From the NCBI GenBank assembly GCA_015065845.1, contig SVPQ01000016.1, positions 1-52,921 of the forward strand: a stretch of DNA of 52,921 bases, read 5' to 3'. The notes below the pieces were generated by a model. It saw nothing but the letters and a program-made list of their open reading frames with translations. It did no database searches and was not told the DNA's origin. Below, in pieces: positions 1 to 38,972 of the stretch. Numbering within the stretch: position 1 is the first letter of the stretch; the number at the start of each line of letters is the position of its first letter. The DNA comes from Oscillospiraceae bacterium (GTDB lineage Bacteria; Bacillota; Clostridia; Oscillospirales; Acutalibacteraceae). The position numbers were made by a program, and so were the translations under genes.

Positions 1-159
1 CCCAACGAAGAGGGCATCGTTGTTTATCATCTTCATGTAGCGGCTGAAGATATGGGCCGTGTTATAGGCAAACAGGGCAGAATTGCAAAAGCTATTCGTA
101 CAGTTATGCGTGCTGCAGCTGTTCGCAAGGATGAGAAAATACAAGTTGACATCGACTAA
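1..159 (+). CDS. khpA: KhpA, KH-domain RNA-binding protein (3' part only)
   Basis: The window opens inside this gene; 52 codons and a TAA stop remain in frame 1. The visible part is the second half of a single KH domain, with the GKQG loop that contacts RNA backbone (context GRVIGKQGRIAKAIR) and a short acidic end VDID. KhpA is a small (about 75-80 residue) RNA chaperone of Firmicutes that pairs with KhpB and affects cell division and sRNA-related regulation. It normally lies between rpsP and rimM-trmD, and rimM and trmD do follow here, so the order supports the call. A structured palindromic element starts two bases after the stop and separates it from rimM. The start and any upstream rpsP lie outside the window. 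Confidence 0.9.
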   Translation, partial: PNEEGIVVYHLHVAAEDMGRVIGKQGRIAKAIRTVMRAAAVRKDEKIQVDID

Positions 160-160
160 A

Positions 161-301
161 CTTAAACTGTTTTTAGCGCAGAACAAAAAGCCCGAAACTC
201 AAAAGTTTCAGGCTTTTTTAGTCATTTTTTCACCCACTCGGCGTACCTTTGTACGCAGTCGGAGTGAAGAAAATGACTTCTGCAACTAAAAACAATTTAA
301 G
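161..301 (+). ncRNA. Candidate structured RNA element, copy 1 (three-way junction)
   Basis: This region is a nested inverted repeat. Outer stem P1 pairs 161-183 with 278-301 (6 bp, one mismatch, 9 bp, a small bulge, 6 bp). Inside it, P2 pairs 185-199 with 204-218, and P3 pairs about 222-250 with 251-276. A second copy at 2178-2315 has the same three-stem layout with different P1 and P2 sequences, so the pairing rather than the sequence is kept. P2 followed by TTTTTT also looks like an intrinsic terminator in the forward direction. The element sits between khpA and rimM, where it could attenuate read-through. The type is inferred; it could instead be a DNA-level palindromic repeat. Confidence 0.6.
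185..219 (+). terminator. Terminator-like hairpin between khpA and rimM (P2 of element copy 1)
   Basis: The arms AAAAAGCC-C-GAAACT and AGTTTC-A-GGCTTTTT form a stem of about 14 bp with one mismatch and a CAAA loop. It ends in a run of six T. It lies within the larger three-stem element. It would terminate or attenuate transcription leaving khpA. Because rimM-trmD usually share this operon, partial read-through is likely. Confidence 0.65.
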
Positions 302-324
302 TTCATTTTTAATAGGTGCAAATT

Positions 325-843
325 ATGATAAAAAAATATCTTGAAATAGGTCAGGTTGTTTCTACTCACGGAATTCGTGGCGAAGTCAGAATAAACCCGT
401 GGTGCAACGGACCTGAATTTGTTAAAAAGTTTAAAACATTATATAAAGATTGTGACGGTAAAGAATGCTTTAAAGTTGTTTCGTGCCGTCCACACAAAAA
501 TGTTGCAATAGCAAAGTTTGAAGGTGTTGACACAGTCGAAATGGCGCAGAGTCTTAAAAATACGGTGCTCTTTATTAAAAGGGAAGATGCACATCTGCCA
601 CAAGGCGAGTGGTTTATAAGCGAACTTTTAGGGTGCAAAGTAATTGACTGTGAAGATGAAACTATCTGCTATGGCGAAATTACAGATGTTGCAGAAACAG
701 GTGCTAATGATGTGTGGTATGTAAAAACCCCATCGGGTGAAGAAGTGCTCATTCCTGCAATACCTGATGTTGTGAAAAAATGTGATGTTGCAGAAGAAAA
801 AGTATATATTCATGCATTAAGGGGGCTTTTCAGTGAGGATTGA
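325..843 (+). CDS. rimM: RimM, 16S rRNA processing protein
   Basis: The 172-residue product matches RimM, which binds ribosomal protein S19 and assists maturation of the 30S head. An N-terminal barrel domain (ending near residue 85) begins EIGQVVSTHGIRGEVRI, a pattern typical of the family. The PRC-barrel domain follows, with GEWFISELLGCKV and ANDVWYV. The ATG at 325 is chosen over an in-frame GTG at 316 because an AGGTG motif sits 6 bases before it and family members start close to the EIGQ segment. Its last 11 bases overlap trmD, so the two are translationally coupled. Copy 1 of the structured element lies directly upstream. Confidence 0.93.
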   Translation: MIKKYLEIGQVVSTHGIRGEVRINPWCNGPEFVKKFKTLYKDCDGKECFKVVSCRPHKNVAIAKFEGVDTVEMAQSLKNTVLFIKREDAHLPQGEWFISELLGCKVIDCEDETICYGEITDVAETGANDVWYVKTPSGEEVLIPAIPDVVKKCDVAEEKVYIHALRGLFSED

Positions 844-1576
844 TATATTAACTCTTTTTCCCGAAATGTGTGAAGCGGTAATGAGTGAAAGTATTATAGG
901 CAGAGCACGAAAAAAAGGTGCAGTTGAAATAAATTTTCACCAGATAAGAGATTTCTCGGTAAATAAACATAATCAGGTTGATGACACCCCTTATGGTGGC
1001 GGTGAAGGTATGCTTATGATGGCACAACCTATATATGATTGTTTTAATAAAGTCTGTAACGAAACAGAAGAAAGACCACACTTTATATATATGTCACCAG
1101 TCGGTAAAACACTCACACAGGAAAGAGTTAAAGAATTGTCAAAATTAGACAATATTGCAATTCTTTGTGGCAGATATGAAGGTGTTGACCAGAGAGTAAT
1201 TGACGAAATAGTTGATGAAGAAATTTCTATTGGTGATTATGTTGTAACAGGTGGCGAGTTACCTGCTATGATATTAGCGGATGCTGTTTCACGGATGTTA
1301 CCAGGAGTGCTTTCTGATGAGCAGGGATTTATCGGTGAAAGTCATTACTCATCTCTTTTGGAATATCCGCAGTACACAAAACCTGTTTCGTGGCATGACA
1401 GAGAAGTGCCGGAGGTTCTGTACTCGGGACATCACGGTAAAATAGAAGAGTGGAAGAAAGAACAATCACTCGAAAGAACATTTTTAAGAAGACCTGAACT
1501 TTTAGAAAAAGCAGAACTCAGTGAAAAAGATAAAAAAATCTTAGCAAAAATCAAAGAAAAACATAGTATGAAATAA
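833..1576 (+). CDS. trmD: TrmD, tRNA (guanine-37-N1)-methyltransferase
   Basis: The 247-residue product is the SPOUT-fold enzyme that transfers a methyl group from S-adenosylmethionine to G37 of tRNAs reading CNN codons and so prevents +1 frameshifting. Diagnostic segments are GGGEGMLMMAQPIYD, YMSPVGKTL, LCGRYEGVDQRVID and the knot region EISIGDYVVTGGELPAM. Length is normal. Translation starts with GTG at 833, inside the end of rimM. The C-terminal domain that grips the tRNA stem (HHGKIEEWKKEQSLERT) is intact. It is the last gene of the rpsP-khpA-rimM-trmD type operon here; no strong terminator follows, but 335 bases of non-coding DNA do. Confidence 0.96.
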   Translation: MRIDILTLFPEMCEAVMSESIIGRARKKGAVEINFHQIRDFSVNKHNQVDDTPYGGGEGMLMMAQPIYDCFNKVCNETEERPHFIYMSPVGKTLTQERVKELSKLDNIAILCGRYEGVDQRVIDEIVDEEISIGDYVVTGGELPAMILADAVSRMLPGVLSDEQGFIGESHYSSLLEYPQYTKPVSWHDREVPEVLYSGHHGKIEEWKKEQSLERTFLRRPELLEKAELSEKDKKILAKIKEKHSMK

Positions 1577-1745
1577 ACAATGTAATGCATAATATATACT
1601 GTAAACCAAGGTTTTGACAGTGAATTGTCATTCAATAACTTGTTGAAGTTTGATATAATAGGTTGAAAATTGTAGTAAATTTGCACAAATCAAAAACTTG
1701 AAAAATGGCACAGTTTAGCATTACCTATGAACTTTCGAAAATTCG

Positions 1746-1773
1746 TTGACTTTAAGCGATTTAGTGATATAAT
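1746..1773 (+). promoter_or_regulatory. Promoter of ptsH
   Basis: TTGACT at 1746-1751 and TATAAT at 1768-1773 are separated by 16 bp, and a TG one base before the -10 box gives an extended -10. The predicted start near 1780 leaves a leader of about 130 bases before the HPr start codon. The rest of the 1577-1911 gap is AT-rich with no gene seen; a further TATAAT at 1654-1659 lacks a good -35 box. Confidence 0.75.
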
Positions 1774-1911
1774 AATCACAGTTAAGGAAACTTAGCAAAA
1801 TTCCCCTGTACCTGACTTTTTACACAAAATGTTGTGTGACGAGTTCAAGAGTACAACCAAATATTCGAAATAGTAAATATGACAAAATTCAGATTTTAGG
1901 AGTAAATTGGT

Positions 1912-2175
1912 ATGTTCGTTAAAGATGTTACAGTTCAGAATCAAGTAGGTCTTCACGCTCGCCCGGCAACATTTTTTATTCAGAAAGCAAATGAATTCAA
2001 ATCATCTATCTGGCTTGAGAAAGAAGAAAGAAGAGTAAACGCAAAAAGTCTTCTTGGTGTTCTTTCACTCGGCATTATGGGTGGTACAGATATCCGCATC
2101 ATCGCTGGTGGTGTAGATGAGGAACAAGCAGTTACTGCACTTGCTGCATTAGTTGACAGCGGTTTCCAAGAATAA
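1912..2175 (+). CDS. ptsH: HPr, phosphocarrier protein of the sugar phosphotransferase system
   Basis: The 87-residue protein carries the active-site histidine in GLHARPATFF, which accepts phosphate from enzyme I and passes it to sugar-specific EIIA domains. It also has the regulatory serine in NAKSLLGVLSLGI, the target of HPr kinase, whose gene lies at 51572-52534. Having the active histidine makes it HPr rather than the Crh paralogue. It is cytoplasmic and of normal length. An AGGAG box lies 9 bases before the ATG. It is monocistronic here, with no ptsI next to it, and is followed at once by copy 2 of the structured element containing a strong terminator. Confidence 0.96.
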   Translation: MFVKDVTVQNQVGLHARPATFFIQKANEFKSSIWLEKEERRVNAKSLLGVLSLGIMGGTDIRIIAGGVDEEQAVTALAALVDSGFQE

Positions 2176-2177
2176 TA

Positions 2178-2315
2178 AGTTTGCTTATTTTAGCGTAGAA
2201 CAAACCCCCGAAGTCACGGACTTCGGGGGTTTTAGTCATTTTTTCACCCGCTCGCAGTATCTATATACAGCTTCGGGGTGAAGAAAATGCCTTCTACATC
2301 TAAATTAAGCAAACT
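2178..2315 (+). ncRNA. Candidate structured RNA element, copy 2 (three-way junction)
   Basis: P1 pairs 2178-2200 with 2292-2315, P2 pairs 2204-2215 with 2219-2230 (12 bp, perfect), and P3 pairs about 2237-2262 with 2264-2289. The layout equals copy 1 at 161-301. Shared sequence is limited to the junction and the base of P3 (TTTAGCG, AGAACAAA, CATTTTTTCACCC, GTGAAGAAAATG). Outer P1 and P2 differ but remain paired. One clear compensatory change is the pair C179-G282 in copy 1, which becomes T2196-A2296 here. It follows ptsH by two bases and probably forms its mRNA 3' end. Confidence 0.6.
2204..2234 (+). terminator. Intrinsic terminator after ptsH (P2 of element copy 2)
   Basis: ACCCCCGAAGTC and GACTTCGGGGGT form a perfect 12-bp GC-rich stem with an ACG loop, followed by TTT. 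It lies about 28 bases after the HPr stop codon. Confidence 0.8.
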
Positions 2316-2451
2316 CTTGAACTCGTTGTTGAGTGGTAAAGAAATTAACTTTTGCATCCAAATTGAACGAATTATACATCCTCTCCAAATTCAACTTATA
2401 ACTACCAAATTATTTAAGTCTTTTTATTTGAATTATATATTCGCGAAAATT

Positions 2452-7495: not shown

Positions 7496-7969
7496 ATGGC
7501 AAAATTTGAATTAACAAATATGATTATGATACAAAATCCTCAAACTCAGGAGGTTGTTGTGCAGAAAAGAGTAAAATACTGGTGTGGTTGTACTTTCCCG
7601 GGTGGTCATGTTGAAAATGGTGAGAGTATTTATGACAGTGCAGTAAGAGAAGCAAAAGAAGAAACAGGTCTTATTGTACGCAATTTAAAATATTGCGGTA
7701 TGATGCACTGGCACAACACAGACACTAATGACAAATATTTTGTTCATTTTTATAAAACGACTGATTACACAGGTGAATTGATAGACAAAACTGATGAGGG
7801 TGAAGTGTTTTTCGCAAGTATTGAAGATTTAAAGAAAATGGAACTCTCACCCAATTTTAGTAAATATCTCACAATGTTTTTAAGCGACGAACATTTTGAA
7901 ATATTTTGCAACTGGAATGAAGAAATGAAAAAAGACGGCGAACCAGAGTGGAACTTTCAATTCAATTGA
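7496..7969 (+). CDS. NUDIX hydrolase (MutT/8-oxo-dGTPase-like)
   Basis: The 157-residue protein has a complete NUDIX box, G-x5-E-x7-REAKEETGL ([15 protein letters not shown] then REAKEETGL, about residues 37-59), which binds the metal that hydrolyses nucleoside-diphosphate-linked substrates. The pattern FPGGHVE with the downstream [11 protein letters not shown] resembles MutT/YtkD-type 8-oxo-dGTP diphosphatases, but the substrate cannot be set by reading. GTTAGGAG lies about 9 bases before the ATG. It follows uvrC by 45 bases, so a shared transcript of two DNA-maintenance genes is plausible. The stop codon is directly followed by a long repeat array. Confidence 0.88.
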
Positions 7970-7970
7970 G

Positions 7971-8281
7971 GTTCAGGAACTAGGAATTAGGAACTAGGAA
8001 TTAGGAACTAGGAATTAGGAACTAGGAATTAGGAACTAGGAATTAGGAACTAGGAATTAGGAACTAGGAATTAGGAATTAGGAATCAGGAATCAGAAATC
8101 AGAAATCAGAAATAAAGAAAGTGCATCCTATCATTTATACAAGTTACAAGTGTGCAAGTATGCAAGTTGCAAGTATCTTAAATACAACTCATCCTATCAT
8201 TTAAAGTTTTTTCGTAAACCAAAAATGATAGGATGTACTTTTTATCTAGTTCCTAGTTCCTAATTCCTATTTCCTGATCCC
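7971..8281. repeat. Composite palindromic repeat element A
   Basis: This fills the 380-base gap before glgP. It starts GGTTCAGGAAC and contains seven exact or near-exact 14-bp units GGAACTAGGAATTA (7976-8073), then decaying 7-bp units (GGAATCA, GAAATCA) to about 8112. A first CATCCTATCATTT arm follows at 8123-8135, then a TGCAAGT array (8139-8176) and a 13-bp perfect hairpin CATCCTATCATTT/AAATGATAGGATG (8190-8202 with 8223-8235). The inverse array TCTAGTTCCTAGTTCCTAATTCC ends it at about 8278. The ends are therefore inverse copies of one another. Related elements lie at 13502 and 28744. Confidence 0.85.
8190..8244 (+). terminator. Terminator-like hairpin in repeat element A
   Basis: A 13-bp perfect stem with a 20-base loop is followed by TACTTTTTATC. 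It probably ends the uvrC-NUDIX transcript. Confidence 0.55.
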
Positions 8282-8292
8282 TAAATTAATTC

Positions 8293-13195: not shown

Positions 13196-13522
13196 ATGAA
13201 ATTAAAAATATTATCAATACTTTTTGCGGTTATATCCTGCGTTTCACTTTTTATAGTACCGGTAAGTGCAAGTGGTTCTGTTGAGTTACCAATAGATGTA
13301 AACGAAAGATATACCGACATAAGTTATGTTGATGAAACAAATGTCTACGGTGAAGTTGTTACAGAAGAAGAGCAACAAGAGTTAGAAACTAAGAGGACAG
13401 TTTATATTGCAGTGCTTTCAGTTCTCCTCGTAATTTCAATTATAATTCTTATTGTTACAGTTAAAAGAGCGAAAGAAGATAAACTTCTTAAAGAGGAAGA
13501 GGGTTCAGGAACTAGGAATTAG
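13196..13522 (+). CDS. Small exported membrane protein, hypothetical
   Basis: The 108-residue product has a signal peptide (MKLKILSILFAVISCVSLFI then VPVSASG), a short acidic outside segment (about residues 26-67), a membrane helix (VYIAVLSVLLVISIIILIVTV, about 70-90) and a basic inner tail. AGGTG lies 5 bases before the ATG. Its last five codons (GSGTRN region) lie inside the GGTTCAGGAACTAGGAATTA repeat that begins element B, so the repeat has supplied the present C-terminus and stop. No known family was recognised. It may be co-expressed with the paralogous stalk proteins. Confidence 0.6.
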   Translation: MKLKILSILFAVISCVSLFIVPVSASGSVELPIDVNERYTDISYVDETNVYGEVVTEEEQQELETKRTVYIAVLSVLLVISIIILIVTVKRAKEDKLLKEEEGSGTRN

Positions 13523-13655
13523 GAATTAGGAAACAGGAAATAGGAAATAGGAAATAGGAAATAGGAAATAGATAAAAACAACTACATTCTATCATTTGTG
13601 ATTTATGATGGAGTGTAGTTTTTTTAAATCTTCCTAATTCCTAATTCCTGAAATA
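13502..13655. repeat. Composite palindromic repeat element B
   Basis: The element starts GGTTCAGGAACTAGGAATTA, the same left boundary as element A, and runs through degenerating GGAAATA units to about 13571. It has a 16-bp hairpin AACTACATTCTATCAT/ATGATGGAGTGTAGTT (13580-13595 with 13605-13620, two G-U pairs) followed by seven T. It ends with the inverse array TTCCTAATTCCTAATTCCTG. The left array overlaps the 3' end of the gene at 13196. Confidence 0.85.
13580..13626 (+). terminator. Strong terminator in repeat element B
   Basis: A 16-bp stem with a 9-base loop is followed by TTTTTTT, a well-formed intrinsic terminator ending the preceding transcript. Confidence 0.8.
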
Positions 13656-18097: not shown

Positions 18098-18874
18098 ATG
18101 AAAGTTGTAATTTTAGCGGGTGGTTTTGGTACAAGAATAAGTGAAGAAAGTCACTTGAAACCAAAGCCGATGATTGGTATTGGTGATAACCCGATTTTAT
18201 GGCATATTATGAAATATTATTCATCATTTGGTTTTAATGATTTTATAATTTGCTGTGGTTATAAAGGTTATGTAATAAAAGAATATTTTGCCGATTACTA
18301 TTTACACCGCTCAGATATCACTTTTGATTTTACAGAAGAAAACAAAATGATAATTCACAACAATATAGCAGAACCCTGGAAAGTTACTGTTGTGGATACA
18401 GGTCTTAATGCACAGACAGGGGCGAGAATCAAACGCGTTCATAAGTACATAGGTGATGAACCGTTTATGCTCACTTATGGTGATGGCGTTTCAGATGTAG
18501 ATATTAATAAACTTATTGATTTCCATAAGAAAATTGGAAAAACTGTTACACTTACAGCGATTCAACCAGGCGGTAAATTTGGTGTGCTTGATATTGACGA
18601 TACAGATACAATTAAACAATTTACCGAAAAAGGTAAAGAAGATGGCGGTTGGATAAATGGTGGTTTTATGGTTGTTGAACCTGAAATTTTCAATTATCTT
18701 ACTGATGAAGAAAATCTGGTGTTTGAGAGAAAACCACTTGAAACACTTGCAAAAGAAGGGAAACTTGGTGCTTTCAAGCACGACGGTTTCTGGCAGTGTA
18801 TGGATACTTTAAGAGATAAAATGTACCTTGAAAGATTGGTTGCAAACGGAGAAGCACCGTGGGTGGTGTGGTGA
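18098..18874 (+). CDS. rfbF: RfbF, glucose-1-phosphate cytidylyltransferase
   Basis: The 258-residue enzyme joins CTP and glucose 1-phosphate to CDP-glucose, the entry to CDP-dideoxysugars. The nucleotidyltransferase start VVILAGGFGTRISEES, then KPKPMIGIG, LTYGDGVSDV, GGKFGVLDI and FWQCMDTLRDK match RfbF closely, and the length is normal. GGGGTG lies before the ATG. The usual partners rfbG (CDP-glucose 4,6-dehydratase) and rfbH are absent; glycosyltransferase and radical SAM genes follow after an inserted cassette. The stop codon is the first base of the repeat bordering that cassette, so the insertion lies exactly at the gene's end. Confidence 0.93.
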   Translation: MKVVILAGGFGTRISEESHLKPKPMIGIGDNPILWHIMKYYSSFGFNDFIICCGYKGYVIKEYFADYYLHRSDITFDFTEENKMIIHNNIAEPWKVTVVDTGLNAQTGARIKRVHKYIGDEPFMLTYGDGVSDVDINKLIDFHKKIGKTVTLTAIQPGGKFGVLDIDDTDTIKQFTEKGKEDGGWINGGFMVVEPEIFNYLTDEENLVFERKPLETLAKEGKLGAFKHDGFWQCMDTLRDKMYLERLVANGEAPWVVW

Positions 18875-18968
18875 TGCGAAGCATCACCGCGATATAAATC
18901 CTAAAGGATTTGCGATATGTTTTTGACGCGATATACTTCGTGCGATATGTTTGCTTACGCAAACGAGA
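18874..18968 (+). repeat. 95-bp GCGATAT-type repeat, left copy
   Basis: The copy starts at the last base of the rfbF stop with ATGCGAAGCATCACCGCGATATAAATCC-type sequence and contains four GCGATAT units, each next to a small palindrome (AAATCCTAAAGGATTT, the GGTGATGCGAAGCATCACC hairpin). It matches 19439-19533 at 91 of 95 positions in the same orientation. From 18969 to 19065, four inverted ATATCGC units follow, making the left flank a large palindrome. Confidence 0.9.
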
Positions 18969-19438: not shown

Positions 19439-19533
19439 ATGCGAAGCATCACCGCGATATAAATCCTAAAGGATTTGCGATATGTTTTTGATGCGATATA
19501 CTTAGTGCGATATGTTTGCTTGCACAAACGAGA
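19439..19533 (+). repeat. 95-bp GCGATAT-type repeat, right copy
   Basis: This is a direct copy of 18874-18968 with four substitutions. It ends about 20 bases before the next gene's start codon, so it may influence expression of the glycosyltransferase gene. Confidence 0.9.
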
Positions 19534-34698: not shown

Positions 34699-35049
34699 TG
34701 GTGGAGATGGCGAGATTCGAACTCGCGTCCGAAGACTTATTCCTCAAACTTTCTACGAGCGTAGTTTATCTTTTTTGTTTCCCCTTTAAAATCGCCGATA
34801 AACAGGCTAAATTAAAGGGTAGCCCTTTAAATCCGTACAAGCTACAAGGCTCTCACTTGTGCCGGTGCACCGCTAAGATGACACCCTTAACTGAACCGCG
34901 GTACTTTCAGTCAGGATGAGCCGCCATTAAGCAGCAGCTAAAACTGTTTTATTATTGTCAGTTATTTTTAAGTTGTGACTTTTATAGTGGTGCCACTCCA
35001 CTGCTCGCTTATCTGGGTTCAAAATCCCCGTCGAAATCCTTTCATCCCC
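34699..35049 (-). ncRNA. ssrA: tmRNA
   Basis: On the minus strand the 5' end GGGGATGAAAGGATTTCGAC and the 3' end TTCGAATCTCGCCATCTCCACCA-type sequence form the tRNA-like domain; GGGGATG pairs with CATCTCC and CCA is encoded. The gene is about 351 nt. The tag reading frame ends DNNKTVLAAA then TAA, a typical degradation tag end, about 90-123 nt from the 5' end; the exact resume codon is not certain. tmRNA rescues stalled ribosomes with SmpB, whose gene lies upstream on the same strand but is separated by a repeat-bounded cassette. Confidence 0.96.
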
Positions 35050-38829: not shown

Positions 38830-38972
38830 TACACTCAACTCGGTCATACGACGAATAGGCGGACTGTGGCGCACAGAACTATCCGCTTAATGCTGCTCGG
38901 TTCCCCGCCTGACATGGTTCACGGTGCCCCGTCGCACAGGACCCACTCGTCGCATGACGGAGCTGAGTGTGC
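38830..38972 (-). ncRNA. ffs: SRP RNA (4.5S-like)
   Basis: On the minus strand the universally conserved domain IV is visible: CCATGTCAGGCGGGGAACCG then AGCAGCA, the Ffh-binding hairpin. The ends ACACTCAGCTCCGTCATGCG and the complementary 3' end form one long irregular rod. At about 143 nt without an Alu-type 5' domain it is the short form, shorter than the Bacillus scRNA. Its place before dnaX is the classic Firmicute order. End points are accurate to a few bases. Confidence 0.93.

Follow-up and report, generated by a model that had tools for sequence, protein, structure and literature searches.

Two regions of the window (the whole 52,921-nt stretch of DNA that was analysed), 160-302 at the 3′ end of khpA and 2178-2315 at the 3′ end of ptsH, are copies of one folded element, and this element belongs to a dispersed family of hairpins. 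Drawing on the mismatches in these hairpins and on analogy with REP and attC sites, we tentatively prefer the explanation in which the template (antisense) strand, when folded, is the conserved form, probably recognised by a protein as single-stranded DNA. A repeat family that is placed at stop codons and carries a template-strand fold is unusual. Gene names used here (khpA, ptsH, rimM, groEL, pgk, tpiA, rpsR and oadB) are those of the original prediction or were given by reading protein ends.

The original prediction, made from the letters of the window, had described two look-alike folded elements at 161-301 and 2178-2315. Folding bore this out: each copy has an outer stem running into a stem P1, a terminator-like hairpin P2 and a longer hairpin P3, with z-scores of -10.6 for copy 1 and -8.4 for copy 2 and none of 200 shuffles equally stable. 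A 20-base motif of P3, TTTTAGTCATTTTTTCACCC, occurs twice in the window against 0.03 occurrences expected from shuffles. The pair change that had been called was also right, as C179-G282 in copy 1 corresponds in sequence to T2196-A2296 in copy 2. In both copies, again as foreseen, the outer arms are unlike between the copies yet self-paired within each, and P2 differs in sequence while its pairing is kept. Sequence and folds agree that P2 of both copies is a GC-rich hairpin followed by a T tract, as in an intrinsic terminator. The features are as follows, copy by copy:

157..159, plus strand: khpA stop codon, read from the sequence; the outer stem of copy 1 begins at the next base
160..176, plus strand: copy 1, 5′ outer arm and outer 5′ half of P1, pairing with 286-302 with one mismatch (167/295), from the fold
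177..177, plus strand: copy 1, conserved C facing the two bases 284-285, from fold and comparison
178..182, plus strand: copy 1, inner P1 GCAGA, pairing with 279-283, from the fold
185..218, plus strand: copy 1, P2, a terminator-like hairpin between A and T tracts, from the fold; missing in many relatives
220..278, plus strand: copy 1, P3 with the conserved tip CTCGGCGTACCTTTGTACGCAGTCGG, from fold and comparison
279..302, plus strand: copy 1, 3′ half of P1 and 3′ outer arm, from the fold
2173..2175, plus strand: ptsH stop codon, read from the sequence; the outer stem of copy 2 begins at 2178
2178..2200, plus strand: copy 2, 5′ outer arm and 5′ half of P1, from the fold
2202..2232, plus strand: copy 2, P2, a terminator-like hairpin differing in sequence from P2 of copy 1, from the fold
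2235..2290, plus strand: copy 2, P3 with the conserved tip, from fold and comparison
2292..2315, plus strand: copy 2, 3′ half of P1 and 3′ outer arm, from the fold
2329..2373, plus strand: probable remnant, the 3′ half of another element, by eye; a similar stretch lies 3′ of ptsH in the relative G018

Several features recur in the core when copies are compared by eye: a C facing AU, a mismatched U.C, a G bulged out of P3 and the P3 tip, which reads CTCG..GTAYCNNNRTAC..TCGG. A 3-bp helix lies between C/AU and U.C, and its central pair is free to change (C-G in 40, A-U in 19 and U-A in 7 of 83 rows). P2 is optional, being missing from array copies and from many single copies; at the groEL site the P2-less form is present in G000 (the window's own genome) and G011 and the P2 form in G018, with similar outer arms. 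The three-way junction originally proposed therefore describes P2-bearing copies but not the many P2-less relatives, each of which is one long interrupted hairpin. A second scaffold with the same tip is about 280 nt long, with closely similar copies in G008 and G014. At two loci of G008 (L451 and L462), near two contig ends, an apparent insertion sequence sits in the terminator hairpin that ends a second-scaffold element. In G000, one element (L007/L017; C21:41736-42059) is split within P3 by around 200 nt rich in small palindromes.

BLAST at E<=3e-4 gave 21 matches in G000 (2.18 Mb), a pair of them being the two halves of one element, and tandem arrays of the element lie on contigs C36 (period of around 100 nt) and C3. 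The element was matched in 18 of 40 genomes, its own counted. Within the genus, a covariance model made from 13 copies that lack P2 (R1) had matches at E<=0.01 in 20 of 22 genomes, own counted, with 35 in G000, and a broader covariance model (R2) matched 30 of 295 genomes of the order, own counted, spread over 8 families; within the window's own family, G000 and G233 were the only genomes matching R2 among the 22 listed. Copies with covarying pairs at gene 3′ ends, which had been named as the support to look for, were found in this search of related genomes. When named genomes were scanned with the tip pattern, the matches listed came mainly from MAGs of Clostridia or Oscillospiraceae, many titled ruminant gut, and from one isolate, Bifidobacterium leontopitheci LMG 31471, in which the model matches three times in tandem (at 44.2, 29.0 and 24.9 bits), the first match lying immediately 3′ of a stop codon. 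The tip pattern also matched 6 stretches in a viral collection, one Parcubacteria contig and one Acidobacteriota contig. No family of Rfam 15 (4227 families) matched the element at its gathering score, the window giving only tmRNA and SRP RNA, and eight element loci compared with Rfam at E<=1 gave 8 matches, none reaching its gathering score, in keeping with the earlier remark that no named RNA family was recognised in it. Searching by title or abstract opening, with supplements and most subscription papers beyond reach, we found no paper describing the family, and as a repeat family of gut Clostridia it is apparently undescribed.

Both window copies follow a gene end, as had been noted, and the family likewise lies mostly at stop codons. 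Placement was counted with mechanical open frames of at least 60 codons on 49 R1 hits chosen among the matches listed in 8 genomes, which gave 41 sites, one of which was dropped at a contig edge. A same-strand open frame ends within -12 to +15 nt of the element's 5′ end at 27 of the 40 sites and within -60 to +25 at 33, the corresponding number for this wider range on the other side being 9; at 7 sites no open frame ends in range on the gene side. The outer stem may take in the stop codon itself. Second-scaffold elements start -7 to +2 nt from a same-strand stop in 14 of the 16 loci (15 in G008, 1 in G014), out of 20, that show the 5′ end. The 28 matches at tip-pattern loci and 29 in the order were mixed, some being stop-anchored in the same manner and others, with other scaffolds, not.

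Individual sites were compared by eye across genomes. The pgk-tpiA intergenic site carries the element in 15 of 21 genomes, a presence that fits a host function and a parasite equally. At the khpA site 8 of the 20 genomes that could be read carry the element (with P2 in 5, without it in 3; G010 and G019 were not readable), as do 5 of 19 at the ptsH site (G017 was unreadable, G009 had no match and G021 was cut off) and 3 of 19 at the groEL site; most other genomes have a plain terminator at khpA and ptsH. A plain terminator also occupies the second-scaffold site at oadB of G008 in 13 of 14 relatives, and the other second-scaffold site of G008 in about 8 or 9 of 11, with one further off and one misread. 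The copies are inferred to have been inserted, and P2 is probably the host gene's terminator. A different palindrome-rich repeat (ATGAAGTAAATCCCTTTCGGGATTTAATGAAG) lies 3′ of groEL in G021 and G001 (L169 and L172), where sister genomes carry the element.

Pairing across copies was assessed at the pgk site in a structure-blind alignment of 15 copies (14 distinct rows), with the structure taken from folds of the same sequences. Over 25 pairs 91.4% of cells were paired, 9 of the 25 showed changes in both partners, and the covariation score was 0.275 versus 0.094 when shuffled; further pair types were not above shuffles (11 versus 11.1). An 85-row alignment fitted to the model, which holds one antisense row (L404 1210-1314), has double changes at 27 of 29 pairs. 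Covariation alone can be mimicked by template switching and should not be read as selection on RNA. Template switching during replication is reported to create hairpins and to maintain or repair them (PMC8794818). At pgk the last part of the coding region doubles as the 5′ arm, and the changes in it are followed by the 3′ arm (GATAAATAA/TTATTTATG in G000, AACAAGTAA/TTACTTGTT in G001); the rpsR site in G011 is a near-perfect palindrome. Because the 3′ arm copies the gene end, the G011 site is palindromic and template switching can make such arms, we do not take the outer arms as evidence for RNA. The possibility, raised at the outset, that each arm is simply a local inverted duplication holds in part for the outer arms (rpsR in G011 and the pgk 3′ arm) but not for the core, in which bulges, mismatches and the hairpin tip are conserved while most pairs change.

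A simple comparison of G.T with A.C mismatches separates the two strands. Arms were aligned symmetrically and isolated mismatches, with two pairs flanking each side, were counted, starting from the 112 elements left after removal of duplicates and skipping those too close to a sequence end. The gene strand has 73 A.C, 23 G.T, 136 T.C/C.T and 10 G.A/A.G mismatches, and looser mismatch rules gave 200 A.C and 83 G.T. The A.C cases are spread over around 60 different contexts; many of the T.C/C.T cases are a fixed motif mismatch (49 T.C in that one bin). In stems of a structured sense RNA, G.U should exceed A.C on the transcribed strand. Control terminator-like hairpins oriented by their T run have this excess (G.T 69, A.C 27; G.T 15 and A.C 10 in those with an A tract as well) and the elements have the reverse, a difference whose Fisher p of 3e-11 is too small, since orthologs and tandem copies among the rows are not independent. 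The same holds for the p of 4e-4 that separates the core (A.C 63, G.T 11) from the outer arms (10 and 12). With one locus taken from each of 29 genomes outside the genus, there were 17 A.C and 1 G.T, and the antisense fold was more stable in 28.

A.C and T.C on the gene strand are G.T and G.A on the other strand, and we therefore lean to the template strand; the mismatch pattern suggests that the strand conserved as a fold is not that of the gene. Of the two options first offered, a structured RNA or a palindromic DNA element, what stands is an element that is structured, recurrent and covarying, and the mismatches lean to DNA and to its template strand. Stability points the same way and carries less weight: the antisense strand was more stable in 96 of 112 elements with RNA parameters and in 104 with DNA parameters, and in a minimum-free-energy control of 22 tRNAs the sense strand was more stable in 20 (RNA) and 13 (DNA). 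Composition accounts for part of this strand difference, which we downgraded as evidence because the z-scores of both strands are alike in the window copies. Strong strand mutation bias is not evident, given the little G/C skew (788/866) at codon third positions of 15 plus-strand window frames.

The strand result bears on each of three rival explanations. In one, the element acts in mRNA on the sense strand, a 3′-UTR hairpin around the stop codon that ends, stabilises or tunes the upstream cistron, with P2 terminating. Such a role would account for the mostly single orientation and the placement at stop codons, for the sites behind khpA, ptsH, groEL, pgk and rpsR, for the likeness of P2 to an intrinsic terminator and for the covarying pairs, and it has a parallel in E. 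coli, where REP sequences lie near stop codons and those less than 16 nt from the stop are reported to lower translation (PMC12306157). It is weakened by gene-strand mismatches of the A.C and T.C kinds instead of G.U, opposite to terminators, and by P2-less pgk-tpiA copies that, by eye, have no T tract behind them; we consider it rather unlikely, while ranking it the strongest competitor. An antisense RNA, read from the opposite strand into the 3′ end of the gene and working as a structured molecule, would place the G.T and G.A pairs on its own strand and agrees with the better antisense fold under RNA parameters. In P2-bearing copies its transcript, however, would meet P2, which has A/T tracts on both sides, before the last arm of P1, and yet P1 is kept; we rate this explanation as improbable. 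We give slightly less credence still to neutral palindromes, self-complementary only through replication template switching and with no recognised structure. The G011 rpsR palindrome, the pgk 3′ arm that tracks the coding end, the absence of strand preference in the outer arms and the reported action of template switching are all as such an origin predicts, but template switching would erase mismatches, whereas the C/AU bulge, the U.C mismatch, the bulged G and the tip recur across copies and genomes, and the core is strand-biased.

Protein recognition of single-stranded DNA gives the best fit because the copies are many, their spread is patchy, they lie mostly in one orientation and P1 is kept even though P2 would interrupt an antisense transcript. 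Among the points against it is that one prevailing gene-end orientation is also expected of a sense mRNA element. Under the preferred reading, a transposase, recombinase or reverse transcriptase would carry copies to the place behind genes where terminators lie. Once a copy has landed, template switching during replication may copy the gene end into the 3′ arm and lengthen the outer stem, and the P2 form would bring its own intrinsic terminator, so that the host gene could still end transcription. If recognition of single-stranded DNA is right, a mobilising enzyme is at work at the ends of genes in gut bacteria, and the acquisition of attC-like sites becomes testable.

Among known systems, REP/BIME sequences and integron attC sites come nearest in logic. 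REP/BIME palindromes are likewise scattered between genes, alone or in clusters, and some of them lie within 15 nt of a stop codon; the element is unlike them in lying mostly in one orientation. To our knowledge, its tip is not the sequence of any REP family. In E. coli, REPs within 15 nt of a stop are reported as 446 of 4,072 by one count and 260 of 496 in an earlier study (PMC12306157). The element is around 80-140 nt long, versus 20-40 nt for REPs, and its ends are locus-specific. REP types carry the terminal tags GTAG or CGTC; CGTC-type REPs are described as likewise lacking a dedicated transposase (PMC3733652). Y1 matches were found in 17 of 40 genomes, the window's own being one of the 40, and none in that genome itself (82% complete) or in the copy-rich G008 and G002. 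Four loci (L116-L119, in G018, G020, G011 and G006) have clear RAYT-like frames, encoding related Y1 proteins of around 250 aa. No RAYT flanked by the element was encountered among 8 Y1 loci scanned for the tip and ends, which gave one stray left-end-like match (L121), and a RAYT/Y1 link was set aside because neither tip nor ends turned up next to the loci examined, L116-L119 included.

Integron attC sites are imperfect palindromes that lie behind a gene in one orientation, with the R boxes RYYYAAC and GTTRRRY. The strand test and the placement counts agree with a bottom-strand fold behind a gene, as at attC sites, and a protein would be predicted to recognise that strand; attC recombination uses only the bottom strand (PMC2727003). 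The integron integrase model TIGR02249 had no match over its cut-off in any of 22 genomes, with weaker matches in 21 of the 22 and in 14 of 14 control genomes. Across 131 model-aligned rows, a few of them antisense, an R box was found on the left in 1, on the right in 3 and on both sides in 0, with 0.09 expected for both from shuffling. A link to integrons was rejected because there was neither an integrase over the cut-off nor an R-box pair; moreover, the genes that host the element look like housekeeping genes, whereas integron attC sits with cassettes. The search for a partner enzyme gave none: the element does not flank the Y1 loci that were examined, and no integron integrase reached the cut-off. 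A more far-reaching version, which we rate as unlikely, is that attC-like tagging of ordinary chromosomal gene ends occurs outside integrons, by a recombination or transposition system without a known enzyme that would use folded template-strand hairpins at stop codons, in one orientation, in Clostridia and a Bifidobacterium. Were it true, such tagging could reveal the way in which genes come by sites of this kind.

ERIC, RUP, Correia/NEMIS and similar MITEs are also long dispersed intergenic palindromes; the element differs from them in its anchoring at stop codons, its conserved internal loops and its template-strand bias. P2 resembles intrinsic terminators in its GC-rich stem with an A tract before and a T tract after it, but the element departs from them in that P2 is optional, P1 and P3 lie outside the terminator and the mismatch bias is reversed. 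Group IIC introns insert at terminators in one orientation; unlike these, the element gave no Rfam intron match in the window or the eight loci scanned.

The window contains further repeats and RNAs. Two copies of a 95-nt repeat (18874-18968 and 19439-19533; 96% identical) with GATGCGAAGCATC- and GCGATAT-like units perhaps represent another palindromic family. Tandem arrays of a 14-nt TAGGAATTAGGAAC-type unit lie at 7926-8153, 8239-8291 and 13458-13615, with an inverted stretch nearby, and AGGAA-type runs resembling these arrays occur elsewhere in G000 and in relatives. The two genes matched by Rfam, for tmRNA (34699-35049) and the small SRP RNA (38850-38948), are both on the minus strand.
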